Shown: in pieces, positions 4,931-46,794 of the stretch
Position numbering within the stretch: the first letter of the stretch is position 1
Layout of the letters: the number at the start of each line of letters is the position of its first letter
DNA from: Phycisphaeraceae bacterium
GTDB taxonomy: Bacteria > Planctomycetota > Phycisphaerae > Phycisphaerales > Phycisphaeraceae
Assembly: GCA_002716625.1 (NCBI GenBank)
Contig: PBAS01000006.1
Span: 1 to 49,090, forward strand
Length of the DNA: 49,090 nucleotides
Direction: 5' to 3'
The notes under the pieces: generated by a model
What the model was told of the DNA's origin: nothing
Seen by the model: only the letters and a program-made list of their open reading frames with translations
Database searches by the model: none
Position numbers and translations under genes: made by a program

Positions 4931-7030
4931 ATGGGCAAAGAACCAACACAAAAAGACCTGAATATTTTTATGAGATGGGCTCGATGCCTGCAATCACCCG
5001 TCGACATGGCGTCCCTGGCATGGTTCCGCATCGTGTTTGGGGGAGCACTACTTGCTCAAACTTTATTGTTCGGCCAATACATATCATCCGATGGTCGATG
5101 GCTGGGCACCCATTTCCACTTCAGTTTCGTGGGGTTCAGTTGGTTGCATCCTTGGCCGGCTGGAGGCATGTTCTGGCACCTATGCGTGCTCGGCTTACTC
5201 GCATTCTGCGTCATGATTGGTTTTTGCTACCAAATCACATCAACTCTCTGTTTTATCGCCTATACCTATGTCTTTCTACTAGACAAATCGACCTATCAGA
5301 ACCACTGGTACTTATTGAGCCTTATCGCTTTCCTCATGGTGTTTATTCCCGCAGGTCGCGCTGCATCAGTTGACGCGTGGCTATGCCCGAAAAGGGCATG
5401 CACAACCATACCAAGATGGACCATCTGGGCATTACGAATACAGATCGGTATCCCTTTCTTCTTCGGCGGCATTGCCAAGCTTCATCCCGACTGGCTATCC
5501 GGCGAACCCATGCGAATGATCCTATCGCAAAAAACTGATTTCCCAATCATCGGCTCATTGTTCAACGAACCCTGGATGGCCTATCTCTACAGCTACAGTG
5601 GAGTACTCCTTGATCTTCTCGTCGTACCGTTTTTACTCTGGCGACCGACACGCATGGCAGCTTATCTCGTTGCACTTATGTTTCACCTAAGCAACCTGAT
5701 TATGTTTCCTGAAATCGGGGTCTTCCCTTGGTTCATGATCGGCGCAACTACCATATTCTTTGAGCCTAAATGGCCCCGATCACTCACCTATATTTTTCGG
5801 CGGACCACTCACTCCCTAGACACCTTACCCGATAGTCCAACCCCTGAATGCCATGCTGGAAACAATCATTTCTTGGTGCTCTTCGCCATCTACTTTGCTG
5901 TACAGTCTGGGTTACCCCTTCGCCACTGGCTCTACCCTGGCGATGTAAACTGGACCCAGGAGGGTAACGACTTCGCTTGGCGCATGAAGATGACACATGT
6001 CAGAAGCCGTGCCCAGTTCTATGCAACCGACCCAACCAACCACAAGACCTGGGAAATCAATCCAATGGACTACATGGTCATGGGTCAACTTGTAAACATG
6101 CGATCTCGTCCTGCCATGATTCTTCAATTTGCCTCTGCGGTAGCTCATGATCTGCAACGCAAAGGACATCACACGATCGAGGTCAGAGCCAAGGTGGCAG
6201 TCTCACTCAATGGTCGTCGCTCCCAAATGCTGATTGACCCAACGGTGGATCTCGCGGCAAAACCACGCAACCACCTGCCTGCCAGATGGATCAATCCTCT
6301 GTCCATCCCACTGGTTCAACGGTTTGATCGGAAGCGCTACGAGCAACATTTTAGTCGCACCGCAATTGAAATGACCAATCTGGGACTGATGGAGAAAGCC
6401 GAAGCGGTACAAGCAGATCACTACGGCCAAGTAGCGAAGGCAGAGCATCATCTCAGTCAGGCAATCAAGCATTTTCGCCAAGCATTGCATCTTAACCCGG
6501 AATCTGTCACGGCGCACAAACAGTTGGCAACAATCCTACAATCAGGAGGAAAACTTGATTTGGCAATTGCCCACTGGGTTTATTTATTGCGAAACCAGCC
6601 AGAAGATGCTGATGCACATAACAATCTGGCCATTGCCCTCATGAATAAAGGTCATTTCGCTGCTGCACTACAGCATTTTCAACAAGCCATAGAAATCAGG
6701 CCACAGTGGGCCACGCCACATAATGGAATCGCATGGGTTTTGGCCAGCAATCCTGATAAAGCAGTACATAACCCATCGCAGGCCATGCATCACGCCCAAC
6801 GTGCGGCAGAACTATCAGGCCATGCAGACGCTTCAATCCTCGATACCCTTGCGGTTGCTTATGCTGCTACAGACCAATTTCACACGGCAATACAAGTTGC
6901 CAAGAACGCCCGTAATCTGGCAATCCAAAATAATCAGCCACAGGTTGTTCTTGAAATTGAAAGCCGTCTCAAGCTATACGAGCATTTAAAAACCAATGGA
7001 ACAGGCACACAACAACCATCTCACCCATGA
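4931..7030 (+). CDS. Vitamin-K-dependent gamma-glutamyl carboxylase homologue fused to TPR domain
   Basis: A 699-residue membrane protein. Residues 1 to about 290 are a multi-helix HTTM/VKG carboxylase domain; LLDKSTYQNHWYL aligns with the segment of human GGCX holding its proposed catalytic base Lys218, making K119 the equivalent. FFGGIAKLHPDWLSGEPM also matches. Residues 290-450 follow the GGCX lumenal part (WRMKMTHVRSRAQ; SLNGRRSQMLIDPTVDLA), so this is the full-length family, not a minimal HTTM protein. Residues about 470-690 are TPRs, absent from animal carboxylases. Known animal enzymes carboxylate glutamate using reduced vitamin K and O2; the bacterial role is unknown. The start is the ATG at 4931, one codon after an in-frame TTG. 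It stands alone, divergent from the decayed epimerase. Confidence 0.88.
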   Translation: MGKEPTQKDLNIFMRWARCLQSPVDMASLAWFRIVFGGALLAQTLLFGQYISSDGRWLGTHFHFSFVGFSWLHPWPAGGMFWHLCVLGLLAFCVMIGFCYQITSTLCFIAYTYVFLLDKSTYQNHWYLLSLIAFLMVFIPAGRAASVDAWLCPKRACTTIPRWTIWALRIQIGIPFFFGGIAKLHPDWLSGEPMRMILSQKTDFPIIGSLFNEPWMAYLYSYSGVLLDLLVVPFLLWRPTRMAAYLVALMFHLSNLIMFPEIGVFPWFMIGATTIFFEPKWPRSLTYIFRRTTHSLDTLPDSPTPECHAGNNHFLVLFAIYFAVQSGLPLRHWLYPGDVNWTQEGNDFAWRMKMTHVRSRAQFYATDPTNHKTWEINPMDYMVMGQLVNMRSRPAMILQFASAVAHDLQRKGHHTIEVRAKVAVSLNGRRSQMLIDPTVDLAAKPRNHLPARWINPLSIPLVQRFDRKRYEQHFSRTAIEMTNLGLMEKAEAVQADHYGQVAKAEHHLSQAIKHFRQALHLNPESVTAHKQLATILQSGGKLDLAIAHWVYLLRNQPEDADAHNNLAIALMNKGHFAAALQHFQQAIEIRPQWATPHNGIAWVLASNPDKAVHNPSQAMHHAQRAAELSGHADASILDTLAVAYAATDQFHTAIQVAKNARNLAIQNNQPQVVLEIESRLKLYEHLKTNGTGTQQPSHP

Positions 7031-11412: not shown

Positions 11413-13470
11413 TCAGCGGCCATTGAGACGATATGGCTCTCCCCGCCCATACACTACCAGCCGTTCGGTCACCCTCTGGACCAGTGCCTGATTATCCTGC
11501 TCCTGAGCAAGCGCCGCTGCCTTGCGGGCTATTTCCACTGCGTGAGGATAATCACCTGCGTTGGCATAGGTTGCCGCAAGCGTATCAAGAACCATCGGCT
11601 CAACATAATTTGTCAATTCGCAAGCCGCCGTAGCATACTTAATGGCGTCACTTGAGTCGTCATTCTGGTCACCGGGAACGGTTGCCAGAACCCAGGCCAA
11701 GGCATTTAAGGAAATAGGGTTATTCGAGACCCATTGCACTGAATTTCGAAAATATCCGATCGCCTCCGATGACTTGCCATCACTCATTTTCTTCTGTCCC
11801 AGCCAGAAGTTTGCTTCGGCAGCTCGGATCGTAATCGATTGGCCCACCTTGTTGGGATAATCATGCTTCGCATGAGTAGCTAGCCGTGCCACGAGGACAT
11901 GCTCCGGTTCGGATACCCCGCTGGCCAGATTAACGGCCACCCCATAATCATCAATTCGAGGATCTTGCGGACGAAAATCATCCCGTGTTACCTGATTGTG
12001 TATGTATAAACCAATCAAGACCAGGCAAATTGCCAGAGGTATCCGGAGCCACCGTCGTGTACGTATGTCAACCACCACCACCTTCACAAAAACCGCAGCG
12101 TATACGAGAAAAAATGGAACAAGATAGAGACGATAACGCGCAACGGCATAGACCAAACTCAGTGAAGCCGCCATTGCTGTTATATACAACAACAACACAA
12201 GATGGCCGGATAACGAGCAGGTGCTCAGATCTGTTGGTGACGAACTGGGTGGATCGTACGAACCACTTTTATGTTCGCTGCCAAAGCTTGCCAGCTTGGC
12301 CCTGACTACCTGGATTCCCAAGATAATGACTGCCGAAAATGCCGCTGGAAATAGCCACCGAAAATCTGGCATCCACTTCGGCAGGCCCATGATGTTCATA
12401 TAAAATGCATAGGACGTGTTTGCCGGCACTTCCCATTTATTCCAAATCATTGCAAACCGCTGGCCCCAATTGGAGATAAGCAAGCCAAGATCTCCCGAGT
12501 AACTATCCCATACCCCCTTCAACGCTTCTGTCGTGCCTCCCTCTGCCTGATCAAGAATCCTGATCGCCGTAGGCGACAATTGGGTAGGAATCGAGCCCCC
12601 AGCCGGCGCTGTTGCCTCGTTACAGTTGACAAAAAGAATGGATGTCATACCGGAAACGGCAAACGGTGGAGCACCAACAGCAATATTACGCGCCATCAGG
12701 GGCGAAAATCCTATCAGGTAACCGATCGTGATTGCCAGCACTGCAGTCGCTGCATACCGAATTCCCCGGCAGCCAAAATGAACCGCCAAGCTGGTGACCA
12801 CCACCGCAATCATGACCTTGCTCATCTCATGAAAAATGGCAAAAAGACCTGTAAGCAAACCTACCCCCACACACAAAGTCACGATGCCGTGCGTGCCAAG
12901 CTTGGAGGATCGGCCAACTATGAATACCAGACAAAACAGGATGAGCGCTAGAAGAAAAACACCAGGCCCCACTCGCAGGAGTTGTGGTTCAAAATAAAAA
13001 AGCGGCGCATAAAGACATGCCAGAATGCCAGCCAGGCAACCTGCAAACAAACCAGCTAAGCGGAATGCAATCAAAAACATCAAGACACATGTGCCAGCCC
13101 CAATGATTAACTGAACGGCCTTGACCAACGGCAATGAATCGTCGAAAAGCCTGTCTGCCGCCGCTAACACATACGAGTAGGCAGGAGCTTGATAAAACAC
13201 ACGAGGGTTGACCCAACTGGCCCATTTTTGTTCCGATGCAGATGCATGCCAGAGGTGGTAAGGGCGAAACGGATCCTTTGCTAGCCAGCCCTCCGTACGC
13301 AGAAGACGAGCCTGCTCCAGATAGGTGGACATGTCCGTCTGATCCCATTCATGCCATCGGTCCAGTGCTGTACCGCAATATTGCGACCAGTACCCAAAGC
13401 GTATACATAACGCCAGCAAAAAAATGAGTGCAGCTGCCACAATGGTTGGATTGGCGCGGATGATTTTCAT
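11413..13470 (-). CDS. GT39-like (PMT/ArnT type) membrane protein with C-terminal TPR tail
   Basis: A 685-residue integral membrane protein. The N-terminal helix is followed by an extracytoplasmic loop with the acidic HEWDQTDMSTYLEQA, reminiscent of the catalytic Asp loop of lipid-linked-sugar glycosyltransferases, then roughly ten further helices to about residue 500. Residues about 560-680 are TPR-like: ANFWLGQKKMSDGKSSEAI, NALAWVLATVP and VLDTLAATYANAGDY. Likely role: transfer of a sugar or other group at the outer face of the membrane (inference). The tail closely resembles that of the carboxylase homologue at 4.9-7.0 kb. Start ATG at 13470. The 122-base gap to the iron operon suggests separate transcription. 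Confidence 0.75.
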   Translation of the reverse strand: MKIIRANPTIVAAALIFLLALCIRFGYWSQYCGTALDRWHEWDQTDMSTYLEQARLLRTEGWLAKDPFRPYHLWHASASEQKWASWVNPRVFYQAPAYSYVLAAADRLFDDSLPLVKAVQLIIGAGTCVLMFLIAFRLAGLFAGCLAGILACLYAPLFYFEPQLLRVGPGVFLLALILFCLVFIVGRSSKLGTHGIVTLCVGVGLLTGLFAIFHEMSKVMIAVVVTSLAVHFGCRGIRYAATAVLAITIGYLIGFSPLMARNIAVGAPPFAVSGMTSILFVNCNEATAPAGGSIPTQLSPTAIRILDQAEGGTTEALKGVWDSYSGDLGLLISNWGQRFAMIWNKWEVPANTSYAFYMNIMGLPKWMPDFRWLFPAAFSAVIILGIQVVRAKLASFGSEHKSGSYDPPSSSPTDLSTCSLSGHLVLLLYITAMAASLSLVYAVARYRLYLVPFFLVYAAVFVKVVVVDIRTRRWLRIPLAICLVLIGLYIHNQVTRDDFRPQDPRIDDYGVAVNLASGVSEPEHVLVARLATHAKHDYPNKVGQSITIRAAEANFWLGQKKMSDGKSSEAIGYFRNSVQWVSNNPISLNALAWVLATVPGDQNDDSSDAIKYATAACELTNYVEPMVLDTLAATYANAGDYPHAVEIARKAAALAQEQDNQALVQRVTERLVVYGRGEPYRLNGR

Positions 13471-15365: not shown

Positions 15366-15404
15366 ATTGCCGCCCAATCCGCTTTGCCCTAGGAGGACTT
15401 GGTC

Positions 15405-18400
15405 ATGATCCGTATGCCGCGCAAACTCAGGTTCAATCCCACCAAGTCCCAGTCACAGAAAAGTGACAAGCAATACAAAACCATCGCCACCCGCCCATCA
15501 TGCGCTGATATGAAACCATGGCAAGGCCTAGAGACACTTGAAACACGTGTCCTCCTATCAGCTGGCGCCGCCATTCCAACCGATCCAACTTCATCGCAAA
15601 ACCCTCAAGGCACGATCATGGGCACGGTCATGCTGGGTCGTGATGACAACACGAAATGGGACCATCCCGCAACAGGGATGCCAGGCATTACCATCTATAC
15701 TGATTTAAACCGTAATGGCATCCGTGACCATTTCGAACCACAGACAATCACCGAGACAGACAACCCTCGCACCAAGTTTGATGAATCAGGCCGGTACGCA
15801 CTGAGAGAACTGCCGCGCGGCACTTATCTTGTACGCCAAATTGTCCCCAGTGGGCACGAACAGAGTTTCCCAAGTGACCCCCAAGAGCACGAAGTCCGCT
15901 TAGGTGATGGGGACATTGTTTTCAATATCAACTTCCATAATAAACCGTTTCCCATGTCTTCAATTCATGGACTTAAATGGTTGGATGAAAACGGTAATGG
16001 CAAACGTGATCAAAAAGAGTCCGGGTTGGCAGGCGTAACGATATATACGGACCTCAATCTAAATGAAAAACTCGACCCATTTGAACCATACACAAAAACC
16101 CTAGATGACAACCCGATCACCAAATTTGATGAAACCGGGTTTTACTGGCTTAGGGATCTTCCACATGGTTTTTACACCATTCGCGAGGTCATGCCTGACG
16201 GTTTAGTGCAGACGTTTCCCGGGCCTAATGATGGTGGTGTTCATGCAGTAACCCTGGAACCTGGTGTAAACGTTGATGGCATTGATTTTGGAAACCGGCG
16301 CGGCCCGGATGATTTCGGATCGATTCATGGCGTCAAGTGGTTGGATCTAAATGGAAATGGTCAGCGGGAAAGGAACGAGCCGGGGCTGGCCGGCGTGACA
16401 ATCTACCTCGATCTTAACAACAACCGCGTGCTGGATGATGACGAACCAACAACCTTAACGTCAGGTCCCTTGCTGCATACAGACCCGCAGATGAAATCTA
16501 TCCGCCAAGATGCATATGAGATGTCGCGCAAGCATCAAGATATGCACTTCGAACAGTTGTTGGACAAGCGCCGTGTAGGGCACTATGCATTTACGGAACT
16601 TGACCCAGGACACTATACAGTCCGTGAAATAGCACCGGATGGGTTTAGCCAAACGTTCCCCGTGGGGCCGATCCCACTTGCCGAGCAGACCGATGCCGTC
16701 TTGCCGCCCGGTGGGCATTACGTCTTGCTTGAAGCAGGCGACCGGATTAAAGGAATCGACTTCGGCAACCAACCAATTAAACCGGGATCCATTCACGGCA
16801 CCAAGTGGGCTGATCTCAATGGCAACAGCGAAAGGGACCCGGATGAGCCAGGTCTGCCCGGTGTTCTGGTCTACGTCGATCTCAACCACAACGGCATGTT
16901 CGATGAGAATGAACCGCATGCCATAACGATGAAGGACATTCCAGAAACTGACTTTGACGAGGCCGGCATGTACTCGATTGATGACCTCGAACCAGGCCAC
17001 CACGTTGTACGTGAAGTGGTACCCGATGGCTTTCGGCAGACATTTCCACGTATTTTCATGCCGATGCATGATTCCGCAATTAAGCGGAACGGCGATGCAG
17101 ACCTATTTGCAACCATTCTCCCGGACTCAATCGATATCACGCTCACTCCCGGCGAGATCTTTGATACCGTTGTTTCAATCCAAGTCCACCCCTTCTTGCT
17201 TGTGCCTCTAGAAGTTAACGTCGTAGCCTCAAATCCCAATACACCATTTGAAAATCTTACGGGGAGCCTAGCCAATGGCGGTGGTGGTGATACATCCACC
17301 TTTGAAGTTGCACTGCTGGGAACTAGTAATCACCAAGCATTTGACCTTGAAATCATCAATGGGTCGTTTGGAAATTCCAGCCTCATGGGCACCGTCCCCG
17401 TCCGCATCCAATCGGCGGTAGGTGGTGGCAGTCACGATGTCATCGTCCGGCCCGGCGAATCGATCGATCACATCAACTTCGGCAACCAGCCCTTAGGCTT
17501 GGGTTCCGTTCGTGGCATCAAATGGCTGGATGAAAATGGTAATGGTCAGCGTGATGATGATGAACCCGGCCTGCCTGGTGTAACGATTTATTCAGACATC
17601 AACCGTAACGGCCATCTGGACCCTAACGAACCTCGCACGGCTACTGTCGAAGACAGCCCGACCACACTCGTCAATGAAGCAGGACACTACTGGCTGGAAG
17701 GACTTAACGCGCAGATCCACGAGATTCGCGAAGTCGTACCCGATGGATTCGTGCAGACATTCCCACATTGGGGTGCCGAATTGGGCATGTCGCAGACCCA
17801 TGACCATGCGCCCGGCATCGCGCTTGACTTCGACCTTACCGGCGTCGAAGCGCAAGTTATTGCGAATAACATTTTGACGACAGAAATCGAAATGACCGTT
17901 GTGTGGCCCAATTCATGCGGGGCGATCATGGAGCACGAAACAGAATACGCAGTCGAAAATCACGAAATTTTCATCAAGATGTTCGGCAAACAAGGTGGGC
18001 AGGTATGCGCCGAAGTGATCTCACCCCAGTCACAATCCATCCGCATCGAAGGCCTCGATCCAGGGAAATACACCGTATTGGGGACACTACACGAAAATCT
18101 TGACACCAACACCAGCAGAAAGTTTGTGCCAACCTTAGAAGTTGAAGGCATTTTCGAAATTTTGGGTCATAGCTATATCATCGAATTGCACCCCGGCGAA
18201 ACAGTGGATGGCGTCGATTTTGGCAACCGCGTGCGGCATGATGGCTCGATTCATGGAATCAAATGGGTTGACCTCAACGGTGACTCCCAACGCAGCTTGG
18301 ATGAACCGGGGCTAGCCGGTGTAACGGTCTATATGGATCTAAATGAAAACGGCAAACTTGATGATGCTGAACCATATACCCAAACAATCCAAGATGACCC

Positions 18401-19805
18401 CACGACCAAACAAGACGAAACCGGACAATACCATCTGTCTGATCTGGCAGCTGGCGAATACCTGGTGCGTGAGGTGATACCCGAGGGCTCTATACCAACC
18501 TTCCCGCTATCGGCATCCGGAGAACCGGAAGGACATAAGGTCCAGTTGGATGCCGGCGGTACGGTCAAGAACATTAATTTTGGCAATATGCCTACCGATC
18601 TGACCGGCTCAATCCATGGGATCAAATGGGTGGACCTTAACGGCAACGGTAAACATGAACCCGATGAACCAGGACTAGCTGGTGTGACAATATACCTTGA
18701 TATCAACCGCAACGGTCAGTTTGATCAGAATGAACCACATGCGACAACCAAGGGGGGTGACAACTCCACATCGAAGGATCAAACCGGTGAATACTCGCTG
18801 AATAATGTCACGCCAGGCTTTTACATTGTCCGGGAAATTGTTCCAGTACAATTCGACCAGACATTCCCTGAAGTCCTCACATGCAGGGCCCTCTTCTGTA
18901 CAGGCAGAGCTCACCTGGTCACGGTTGAGCTTGGTGAAAAGATCACGGGGATCGATTTCGGCAATCATCCGGTGGAGGAAAAAGGCTCAATTCACGGCAT
19001 CAAGTGGCATGACAAAAATAACAACGGCGTACTTGATGACAAAGAACCGGGACTGCCTGGCGTCACGGTCTATCTGGACCTAAACCGAAACAGCAAGCTT
19101 GATGGCCAGGACCCGCATACCCAAACGATTCAAGACAACCCCAACACCAAACACAACGAAGCCGGCCAGTACAAGCTGACTGACTTGGCGCCTGGTGAAT
19201 ACCTGGTACGCGAGATCGTTCCTGATGGTTTTACCCCAACCTATCCGCTAGCGGCATCCGGAGGACCGGAAGGACACAGAGTCCAGCTGGAAACTGGAGG
19301 CAAGGTCACTGGTATTGATTTTGGAAACCGCCGTACTAAGCCCGGCATCATCAGAGGGCGTGTCTGGCATGACCATAATGGCAACGGACAGCAAGACATA
19401 CACGAAACAGGGCTGCTAGGCGCAACTGTTTTCCTTGACCTCAACAATAATCATGTCCTTGATGACAATGAGCCTCATCAGTTGACCTCGGGGCTGTTGC
19501 CCTACACTGATCCAATCATGAAGGATCTCCTGCAGGAGGTTCCAAACATCACGCTTCGTGAGTCAGAGATTGACTTTATGACTCTGCTAAATCACCATCG
19601 AAAAGGGCACTATCAATTCAAGAACCTTCAGCCAGGCCAATACATGGTGCGGCAAGTTGTTCCCCAGGGGTTCATTCAAACTTTTCCTACCCACCAAGCT
19701 GGACATGAATTGAACGTGGACCCCGGCGCCATCATGCGCGATATTGACTTTGGTAATCGCCGAACAGATGGCCTACGCGATGACGTCGGGGTTGACTTGG
19801 GATAA
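15405..19805 (+). CDS. Large secreted protein with nine SdrD_B-like repeats and LEPR-XLL-type N-terminus
   Basis: A 1466-residue protein. The ATG at 15405 is chosen because AGGAGG lies 8 bases before it. The N-terminus is basic, lacks a classical hydrophobic signal and carries LETLETRVLLSAG at about residues 46-58, the LEPR-XLL element found on large planctomycete surface proteins. Then nine repeats begin near residues 69, 185, 305, 461, 700, 947, 1068, 1194 and 1314. Each has a GSIHGIKWxDxNGNGxRDxxEPGLxGVTIY core, DLNxNGxLDxxEP, a YxLxDLxPGxYxVREVxPDG segment and IDFGN. The Dx[DN]xNG loops suggest Ca2+ binding, as in SdrD B repeats. Repeats 4 and 5 carry extra inserts of about 120 residues. 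No PEP-CTERM, LPXTG or other C-terminal sorting signal is seen. Likely an adhesin or matrix protein (inference). Confidence 0.88.
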   Translation: MIRMPRKLRFNPTKSQSQKSDKQYKTIATRPSCADMKPWQGLETLETRVLLSAGAAIPTDPTSSQNPQGTIMGTVMLGRDDNTKWDHPATGMPGITIYTDLNRNGIRDHFEPQTITETDNPRTKFDESGRYALRELPRGTYLVRQIVPSGHEQSFPSDPQEHEVRLGDGDIVFNINFHNKPFPMSSIHGLKWLDENGNGKRDQKESGLAGVTIYTDLNLNEKLDPFEPYTKTLDDNPITKFDETGFYWLRDLPHGFYTIREVMPDGLVQTFPGPNDGGVHAVTLEPGVNVDGIDFGNRRGPDDFGSIHGVKWLDLNGNGQRERNEPGLAGVTIYLDLNNNRVLDDDEPTTLTSGPLLHTDPQMKSIRQDAYEMSRKHQDMHFEQLLDKRRVGHYAFTELDPGHYTVREIAPDGFSQTFPVGPIPLAEQTDAVLPPGGHYVLLEAGDRIKGIDFGNQPIKPGSIHGTKWADLNGNSERDPDEPGLPGVLVYVDLNHNGMFDENEPHAITMKDIPETDFDEAGMYSIDDLEPGHHVVREVVPDGFRQTFPRIFMPMHDSAIKRNGDADLFATILPDSIDITLTPGEIFDTVVSIQVHPFLLVPLEVNVVASNPNTPFENLTGSLANGGGGDTSTFEVALLGTSNHQAFDLEIINGSFGNSSLMGTVPVRIQSAVGGGSHDVIVRPGESIDHINFGNQPLGLGSVRGIKWLDENGNGQRDDDEPGLPGVTIYSDINRNGHLDPNEPRTATVEDSPTTLVNEAGHYWLEGLNAQIHEIREVVPDGFVQTFPHWGAELGMSQTHDHAPGIALDFDLTGVEAQVIANNILTTEIEMTVVWPNSCGAIMEHETEYAVENHEIFIKMFGKQGGQVCAEVISPQSQSIRIEGLDPGKYTVLGTLHENLDTNTSRKFVPTLEVEGIFEILGHSYIIELHPGETVDGVDFGNRVRHDGSIHGIKWVDLNGDSQRSLDEPGLAGVTVYMDLNENGKLDDAEPYTQTIQDDPTTKQDETGQYHLSDLAAGEYLVREVIPEGSIPTFPLSASGEPEGHKVQLDAGGTVKNINFGNMPTDLTGSIHGIKWVDLNGNGKHEPDEPGLAGVTIYLDINRNGQFDQNEPHATTKGGDNSTSKDQTGEYSLNNVTPGFYIVREIVPVQFDQTFPEVLTCRALFCTGRAHLVTVELGEKITGIDFGNHPVEEKGSIHGIKWHDKNNNGVLDDKEPGLPGVTVYLDLNRNSKLDGQDPHTQTIQDNPNTKHNEAGQYKLTDLAPGEYLVREIVPDGFTPTYPLAASGGPEGHRVQLETGGKVTGIDFGNRRTKPGIIRGRVWHDHNGNGQQDIHETGLLGATVFLDLNNNHVLDDNEPHQLTSGLLPYTDPIMKDLLQEVPNITLRESEIDFMTLLNHHRKGHYQFKNLQPGQYMVRQVVPQGFIQTFPTHQAGHELNVDPGAIMRDIDFGNRRTDGLRDDVGVDLG
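15609..19773 (+). repeat. Nine tandem SdrD_B-like coding repeats
   Basis: Unit starts are at 15609, 15957, 16317, 16785, 17502, 18243, 18606, 18984 and 19344. Regular units are about 350-380 bases; the unit at 16785 is 717 and that at 17502 is 741 because of inserted segments. Units 6 and 8 (18243, 18984) are the most alike, sharing NGKLDDAEP/NSKLDGQDP, HTQTIQD and FPLSASG/YPLAASG parts, which points to recent duplication. Unit 1 is the most diverged. Units 3 and 9 share a distinct LTSGxLxxTDPxMK insert, also suggesting block duplication. Confidence 0.85.
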
Positions 19806-44500: not shown

Positions 44501-46120
44501 TTAGCGAGCGTACTCAATGGTACGCATTTCACGAAGAACTGTAACACGAATTTCACCCGGAAAAGTCATCTCTTCACTCACTCGTTTGGCAATGTCCCGT
44601 GCCACATAACGGCTGTTAACATCATCAACCGCCTCAGGATCAACCACCACCCGAACCTCCCGCCCAGCCTGGATCGCATACGCCTGCTTAACGCCCTTCA
44701 TGCTGGTAGCGATCTCCTCAAGTTGCTCAAGACGTTTTACGTATTTCTCGAGCGTCTCCCGGCGAGCACCGGGGCGAGCACCACTAATTGCATCTGCTGC
44801 CATTACGATTGGTGTATAGGGGGTAGTCGCGGGAATATCATTGTGGTGGCCACCAATGGCATTGAGCACCGCCTCGCCCTCACCAAGCTTCTTGCAGAAA
44901 TCCATGCCGATTGCTGGATGGCCTCCCTCAACTTCATGATCCATGGCCTTGCCAATATCATGCAGGTAGCCACATCGACGCGCAATCTGTCCGTCGAGCC
45001 CCAATTCATCGGCAATTACCTGGCAGAGATATGCCACCTCGATCGAGTGGCGAAGGATATTCTGGCCGTAGCTTGTTCGATAATGCAGCCGGCCCATCAT
45101 GTCGCTAATTTTTCCGTGCAGACCTTGAATGTTGGCTTCGATACATGATTCCTTGCCAATCTTGACCAAACGCTGTGACATCTCTTCATGTATCTGCTCA
45201 ACAATTTCCTCGATGCGCGAAGGATGAATTCGGCCATCTTCAAGTAGCTTCTGCAACGCCTCTGATGCCACAGCACATCGAATAGGATCAAAACAGGAGA
45301 CCACCACCACGCCTGGCGTGTCGTCCACAATCATGTCGACGCCGGTAGCCTTTTCAAAGGCCCTGATATTACGGCCTTCGCGGCCGATAATCCGCCCCTT
45401 CATGTCATCGGAAGGAATTAACACTGCCGAAACAGTTGAACTGGATGTATGTTCTGATGCATACCGCTGAATGGCCTGAAGCGTGATCTTTAAGGAGACT
45501 TCCTTGCACTCTTCTTCTGCCCGCTCGGTACCACGCTGGATGAGTTGAGCCGCGTCGTGCTGAACCTCATGTTCCACCAAACGAAGCGCTTCCTTGCGGG
45601 CATCTTCAACCGAAAGATTACTGATCCGCAATAGCGACTGTTTCTGTTCCTGGGTGATTTTTTCCAAAAGCTTCCTGCGATCGGTGATGAGCTGGCCTAG
45701 CTTTGCATCCTTTACAGAAACCGCTTTTTCCCGATCCTTTATTTTATCCTCAAACTCATCGAGAAACTTCGTTTTAGTGGTCAGCATATCAAGCTTGCGA
45801 TCAAGGTTATCTTCCCGCTTGGCAAGGCGCCGTTCGATATCCTTCAGTTCATTTCGATCACTGTTGCTCTGGCGATCAAACTCCTCGCGCCGCTTGGCAA
45901 TCTCATTTCGAGCATCTAGTTCGATCTGCTTGCCGGCAGTCTCTGCCTCCTGTCGGCTGGATGACAGTAGTTGTTCGGCCTGACGTCGGGCGTCACCAAT
46001 CATTCGAACCCCCATCACCCTACTTAATAGAATGACCGCAATCACACCGACAAGGAGTCCGCCTAAACCCCCGAAGATCAACCAGGCCATGTCCGTTGTA
46101 TCTAAACCCATGCTCGGCAT
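44501..46120 (-). CDS. rny: Ribonuclease Y
   Basis: A 539-residue membrane-anchored endoribonuclease that starts mRNA decay. N-terminal helix (about residues 12-36), long coiled coil (about 45-210), KH domain around 230-290 with [12 protein letters not shown], then an HD domain with [11 protein letters not shown] and [18 protein letters not shown] (H358 and the H387-D388 pair numbered from ATG 46120), and a C-terminal portion ([11 protein letters not shown]). The ATG at 46120 has AAGGG 8 bases upstream and is preferred to the GTG one codon before. The pseudo-comF ends 20 bases from its stop, in convergent orientation. Confidence 0.96.
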
Positions 46121-46794
46121 CACGTTTACCCTTCATTATGATGCGAACCGAAGCGCAGAAAAAGAGCACTTCAGTACCATCAAGGCACTAGCTGGATACG
46201 AAAGGCCTAGGGTATCCGATCAGAGAGTAGTATGGACAGCTGACAAAAAAGGTGATCGCTTTGACGCTTGGCTTGGCAGATCTGCCAGCGCAAGGTCAAC
46301 CATGGCGCCCACAAGCCCGTACCGGGACGTCATGCCAACGGTATCGAATCGCCAGCTCACGTAAGCCAGCACTTCATGTACAGAATTTTGTCGAAAATCA
46401 CCAAGTAATTGATACATTGTCAATCTATCCCGTCCGCATGGCGGACGTTCCGGCGTATGCATTGACTGAACACGCCGGACTGATCGGTCACGGCCTCGGA
46501 TGGCCATCCACCCAGCTCGTGCCGGTTGTTGCTAATCCCCCGCAAAAGTTTCTTGGCGGCCGCACTATGCACCCTGCCAAGAAACGATACTCAAGCATAG
46601 GGCATATCGAAGTATCATGTCAAGAAGAGGTCCTTTAAATTACCCATGAACATCGACAGAACAAAATAATCAATGAATGGATCATATAACATTGCCATAT
46701 AAGTGTTTATGAAATCAGATCTAGATGGCTGGCCTAGGCGCCAATCCGCAAAGGGTGTGGCAACCAAGCCAAATTCAATGATAGGAAGCGGCTA
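46121..46794. other. 674-base stretch without a supported gene
   Basis: Open frames here (46220-46507 on minus, 46252-46638 on plus) carry no recognisable domain and are not favoured. The right half (46408-46616) is full of perfect inverted repeats and is listed as a separate RNA candidate. The left part must contain the rny promoter on the minus strand; no clean -35/-10 pair is visible. Confidence 0.5.
46408..46616. ncRNA. Cluster of perfect hairpins, candidate structured RNA
   Basis: Consecutive perfect helices: ATTGA/TCAAT (46408-46412, 46420-46424); CGTCCGC-ATG-GCGGACG (46431-46447); TCCGGCGT/ACGCCGGA (46449-46456, 46472-46479, loop 15); palindrome GGATGGCCATCC (46498-46509); a 12-pair stem with one G-U pair, 46548-46559 with 46574-46585 (outer part GTTTCTTGGC/GCCAAGAAAC, loop 14); and GATACT/AGTATC (46586-46591, 46611-46616). 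The strand is undecided: read on minus, the big stem is followed by TTTTG, weakly terminator-like. The place upstream of rny is where 6S RNA lies in some other bacteria, but no 6S rod shape was found. Confidence 0.42.

Follow-up and report, generated by a model that had tools for sequence, protein, structure and literature searches.

In human GGCX, the blood-clotting carboxylase, K218 serves as the base for deprotonation of vitamin K hydroquinone, the Glu side chain is coordinated by N159, H160 and Y395, and K154 forms hydrogen bonds where the membrane and lumenal parts meet; the chain then continues with what remains of the propeptide-binding domain and a flexible Arch (PMC12589487). The HTTM domain is also treated in PMC5343777. 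Tetratricopeptide repeats (TPRs) are found in the lumenal tail of the TMTC proteins (PMC7801869), and a TPR-holding domain confers substrate specificity on the flagellin glycosyltransferase FlmG (PMC7591256). We analyzed a stretch of 49,090 nucleotides (the window) from a Phycisphaeraceae bacterium (assembly GCA_002716625.1, contig PBAS01000006.1), which contains a gene for a homologue of GGCX with a TPR tail. The genome had been called planctomycete-like from its sequence, and it does belong to the class Phycisphaerae of Planctomycetota. The data support a genuine TPR fusion on a vitamin-K-carboxylase homologue in a planctomycete. As judged by titles and the starts of abstracts, we found no study of a bacterial VKGC-type enzyme's substrate or of such a TPR fusion among the papers listed from an open-access library. 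The gene, its domains and the residues discussed below are as follows.

4931..7030, + strand: TPR-tailed bacterial VKGC-type (GGCX-like) protein of 699 amino acids (aa), one uninterrupted open reading frame (ORF)
4997..5773, + strand: HTTM membrane domain, residues 23-281 (PF05090, E 6e-79, 265.7 bits, cut-off 27.7)
5864..6301, + strand: VKGC lumenal domain (VKGC_lumenal_dom), residues 312-457 (PF22777, E 4.6e-39, 134.2 bits, cut-off 27.7)
6353..7003, + strand: TPR tail, residues 475-691 (Pfam TPR families at about 497-630)
5477..5479, + strand: K183, equivalent of the human catalytic base K218 (Lys in 233/233 bacterial rows)
5300..5305, + strand: N124-H125, equivalents of human N159-H160 of the Glu-binding pocket (N and H in 233/233 bacterial rows)
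5285..5287, + strand: K119, equivalent of human K154 (Q in 143, K in 50 and E in 23 of 233 bacterial rows)

The original prediction held that the N-terminal part follows animal GGCX through both the membrane and the lumenal parts and that TPRs make up the C-terminus, and both statements are borne out. Residues 9-461 match human GGCX in a phmmer search (E 1.9e-43), and the predicted model superposes on substrate-bound GGCX structures across the membrane and lumenal parts, indicating the GGCX fold for these two parts. With PF05090, PF22777 and the equivalents of K218, N159 and H160 all present, it belongs with the VKGC-type HTTM proteins. Its description as a full-length GGCX homologue was overstated, since the match ends at about human residue 509 by sequence and about 542 by structure, in a chain of 758 residues. 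In the predicted model, helix 312-334 is the counterpart of the last membrane helix and is followed by the lumenal domain and the TPRs, with high confidence across the junction of head and tail. A hydropathy scan gave only five membrane segments, the last ending at 264 with none beyond, and is therefore too insensitive for topology. The order of the TPR tail after a polytopic head is established; from the GGCX fold, the tail would lie on the same side of the membrane as the lumenal domain, which would be the periplasm.

Conservation was assessed in an alignment of human GGCX with 233 bacterial rows, made up of the window protein, 120 database proteins and 112 proteins from fetched loci. The catalytic Lys and the Asn-His pair are invariant among the bacterial rows, and W223, F286 and F299 of human GGCX are conserved in all rows. 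K119 had been proposed as the catalytic lysine. This assignment is incorrect, because K119 aligns with the interface residue K154 and varies across bacteria; the residue in the position of the catalytic base is K183.

The TPR part could in principle be a separate gene joined by assembly, the protein then being a chimera or two genes read as one. The sole indication of this kind is a difference in GC content at third codon positions, 0.56 in the head and 0.41 in the tail. A search with the window protein gave 1290 matches, of which 120 were listed. One of these, P0002, is a separate database protein that is 98% identical over 100% of the query and has the same 699-aa architecture and junction, and the 13 differences between the two proteins are divided between head (7) and tail (6). 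In four divergent proteins (P0003-P0006, 42-44% identical) TPRs likewise follow the lumenal domain. These findings, along with the single open frame over 4931-7030 and the confident model across the junction, leave an assembly artefact virtually no probability.

The survey of fusions called for in the original prediction indicates that the TPR fusion is rare. TPR domains occur in 5 of the 120 listed matches (P0002-P0006), and BLAST analysis of 112 proteins from fetched loci, besides those of the window and of locus L002, found a TPR tail in none; the longest extension beyond the lumenal domain among these 112 was 74 residues, with two rows cut short. In scans of genome contigs, a first one gave no relative and a second retained the best 80 of 240. 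Of 392 genomes surveyed from the phylum, 39 contain PF22777 itself (38 above cut-off), as do 7 of 400 genomes of the order, the window's genome being included in both counts. Other frames of more than 600 aa in the two surveys came from genomes G211, G177, G333, G205, G121, G044 and G655, and all except that of G205 were read: the length is due to N-terminal extensions in G211 and G177, to an insertion inside the lumenal domain in G333, G121 and G655, and in G044 the frame has a divergent head without a TPR tail. Three planctomycete VKGC-type proteins of 730-770 aa (L174:327-2519, L175:559-2805 and L178:682-2994) have an insertion of about 200-270 residues inside the lumenal domain, and P0035 represents another fusion, a VKGC-type protein with an extra PF04134 domain by precomputed annotation. 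In a FastTree phylogeny the six fusions were scattered over a clade of 190 of the 233 tips. A smaller tree required four changes to account for the fusions, but the approximately unbiased (AU) test, performed with 50 rows (6 fusions, 22 near ones and 22 random), did not reject a single clade (p 0.523), so that the fusion may have arisen once or several times.

We consider the chances about even that this bacterial relative of the vitamin K-dependent carboxylase carboxylates Glu residues of a TPR-docked protein using menaquinone hydroquinone. What computation establishes is the sequence and predicted-fold match, the domain order, the conserved residues, the rarity of the fusion, the related TPR tails in the genome and the menaquinone-pathway homologues. 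By analogy with human GGCX, K183 would remove a proton from menaquinone hydroquinone inside the membrane pocket, and reaction with oxygen would yield the epoxide and a strong base. This base would abstract the gamma proton of a substrate Glu positioned by N124 and H125, and addition of CO2 would give gamma-carboxyglutamate (Gla). The lumenal domain would lie on the periplasmic side, just as its animal counterpart faces the lumen of the endoplasmic reticulum, and the TPR tail would bring in the substrate with no need for an animal-type propeptide, as suggested by FlmG, OGT and the TMTC proteins.

Menaquinone synthesis in this organism probably follows the futalosine route, since the genome has two MqnA/MqnD-type genes (PF02621, E 4e-69 and 3e-35). 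Two VKOR-family matches, which the original prediction had suggested looking for, were found elsewhere in the genome (L033:1453-2841 and L034). The match on contig C51 lies within a 462-aa ORF whose C-terminal part appears thioredoxin/DsbA-like by eye, which would fit a role in forming disulfides better than one in recycling vitamin K; the match on contig C1 has a flagged internal stop and then a separate frame that is DsbA-like by eye.

The genes flanking the carboxylase gene encode an ABC importer, a DUF3467 protein, GDSL and alpha/beta hydrolases, a redoxin, an aldo/keto reductase and others. No Glu-rich neighbor was obvious in the window, Glu content being 6.5% in the SdrD_B-like protein of 15399-19805 and 10.0% in the product of 44501-46123, for which no family scan was made. 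The former (+ strand) has 1468 aa with SdrD B-like repeats in 8 Pfam stretches; SdrD B-like domains bind calcium, and nothing ties this protein to the carboxylase. Among 80 named loci, seven neighbor clusters besides the carboxylase recur in 5 to 13 loci each. Representatives of five were scanned and gave a response regulator, an ABC transporter, a histidine kinase, a DUF1559 protein and, in Nannocystis only, a divergent HTTM gene, which stands beside the VKGC-type gene in Nannocystis L050. Adjacent pairs of VKGC-type genes occur in planctomycete genomes at L086, L097, L100 and L177.

Among the proteins of this genome with TPR tails related to that of the carboxylase homologue are the following two.

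11413..13470, - strand: window protein with a related TPR tail (own-genome tail search, E 8e-12) and a polytopic head, GT-C-like by eye, with no Pfam match to the head
L002 (G000:C4:60379-61191), - strand: P0241, the second HTTM-TPR protein of the genome, with no lumenal domain

The first of these ends in LDTLAATYA, and its gene lies 4.4 kb from the carboxylase gene. When the tail of the carboxylase homologue was searched against databases, 7 of the 120 listed matches were named protein O-mannosyl-transferase. P0241 keeps the catalytic-type Lys and His and has Gln for N159. In a search with P0241, 11 of 71 matches, plus P0186, list HTTM and TPR domains. Across a wider set of 72 HTTM rows without the lumenal domain, which leaves out P0312 (one of the 71 matches) and includes two rows (P0283 and P0309) that list no HTTM domain, Lys and His are kept in 70 rows each, and Gln replaces N159 in 69.

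Several observations weigh against TPR-directed carboxylation. Carboxylase activity, substrate and Gla are predictions for the window protein, made by analogy with the animal enzyme, and a Leptospira homologue is reported to have altered activity. Human K217 is replaced by A182 (Ala in 231 rows), Y395 by N346 (His in 209 rows), H404 by T355, R406 by V357, the propeptide contact Y425 by E375, and the C99-C450 disulfide pair by F64 and A403. The absence of an adjoining substrate or quinone-reductase gene, as originally claimed, holds among the flanking ORFs scanned, which include a minority of those beyond 23203; the quinone-reductase part of the claim needs widening in view of the VKOR-family matches elsewhere. 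No constant neighbor partner emerged across the 80 named loci, with five of the seven clusters scanned. The best match to the Gla domain PF00594 in the genome (E 0.64, 12.8 bits, cut-off 27) was not near the cut-off, and the same loose search gave matches in 4 of 14 control genomes, none above cut-off. MqnC-like matches fell under the curated cut-off and carry little weight, since 10 of the 14 control genomes also gave matches to that model. Finally, the same genome carries related TPR tails on PMT_2, sulfatase, UnbV/ASPIC, GDSL and HTTM heads, so that the role of the tail may be general.

This last observation would be expected if the protein is a carboxylase whose tail is a scaffold or oligomerization module common to many proteins rather than a substrate receptor, an explanation that we consider unlikely but deserving serious weight. 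The structural matches of the predicted model include the TPRs of MamA and PilW, which are assembly proteins; the TPRs of OGT match as well, and FlmG provides a case in which a TPR-holding domain gives a modifying enzyme its specificity. The position of the TPRs, which in human GGCX is taken by the remainder of the propeptide-binding domain together with the Arch, fits the proposal that they replace propeptide recognition; recruitment of a substrate by them is an inference, and the related tails on unrelated heads leave room for a general scaffold role. Nearly as probable as the scaffold explanation is that the protein, though an HTTM enzyme dependent on quinone, leaves protein Glu uncarboxylated and instead epoxidizes menaquinone or uses the base on another substrate, perhaps a small molecule or lipid. 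The wider HTTM set, with Lys and His kept but Gln for N159, is consistent with such an enzyme, as are the altered activity reported for the Leptospira homologue and the N, T and V of the window protein at the Y395, H404 and R406 equivalents, where the bacterial consensus is H, R and K. Unlike the wider HTTM set, the window protein keeps the lumenal domain and the full N159/H160/K218 set, and its model superposes on substrate-bound GGCX over both parts. Among the fusion lineages, 3 of 4 depart from the consensus at two or three of the three positions, versus 24 of 227 others (Fisher p 0.005), in a post hoc and exploratory comparison uncorrected for relatedness, with 1 of the 24 rows gapped at these positions; this would fit a changed substrate entrance in the fusions.

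TPR-directed carboxylation has a broader form, in which propeptide-free gamma-carboxylation uses a TPR receptor of a type found on about a dozen different heads (GT-C-type, sulfatase, GDSL and two HTTM quinone-type enzymes among those counted) to bring in client surface proteins, so that vitamin K chemistry and glycosylation share clients; we regard this as improbable. If carboxylation of TPR-docked clients is correct, the animal propeptide is not the only means of targeting vitamin K carboxylation. The TPR tail alone is a natural bait that could pull down the client protein, making bacterial Gla formation directly testable.

Compared with animal GGCX, the window protein keeps the catalytic Lys, Asn and His and has a TPR tail in place of the remaining propeptide-binding region and of the Arch, which have no counterpart in it. 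Lacking these, as well as K217, Y395, H404, R406, the Y425 contact and the C99-C450 disulfide, it is not an animal GGCX proper. The short bacterial VKGC-type proteins (PF05090 and PF22777, about 430-570 aa), some of which are named 'vitamin K-dependent gamma-carboxylase' or 'HTTM domain-containing protein' at source, share its catalytic residues and are 43-51% identical to its head among the listed matches, but they end soon after the lumenal domain whereas the window protein continues into TPRs. The HTTM-TPR proteins without a lumenal domain (P0241, P0242-P0248, P0252, P0253, P0286, P0311 and P0186) resemble it in an HTTM head with Lys and His kept and in a related TPR tail (36% identical over 220 residues), and differ in the absence of PF22777, the Gln for N159 and additional hydrophobic helices ahead of the TPRs. 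TMTC1-4 and the TPR-tailed bacterial GT-C-type proteins have the same order of polytopic head and TPR tail, with an unrelated catalytic head and chemistry. FlmG has a TPR-holding domain on a protein-modifying enzyme, as proposed for the window protein, but is a cytoplasmic GT-B-type enzyme with N-terminal TPRs.
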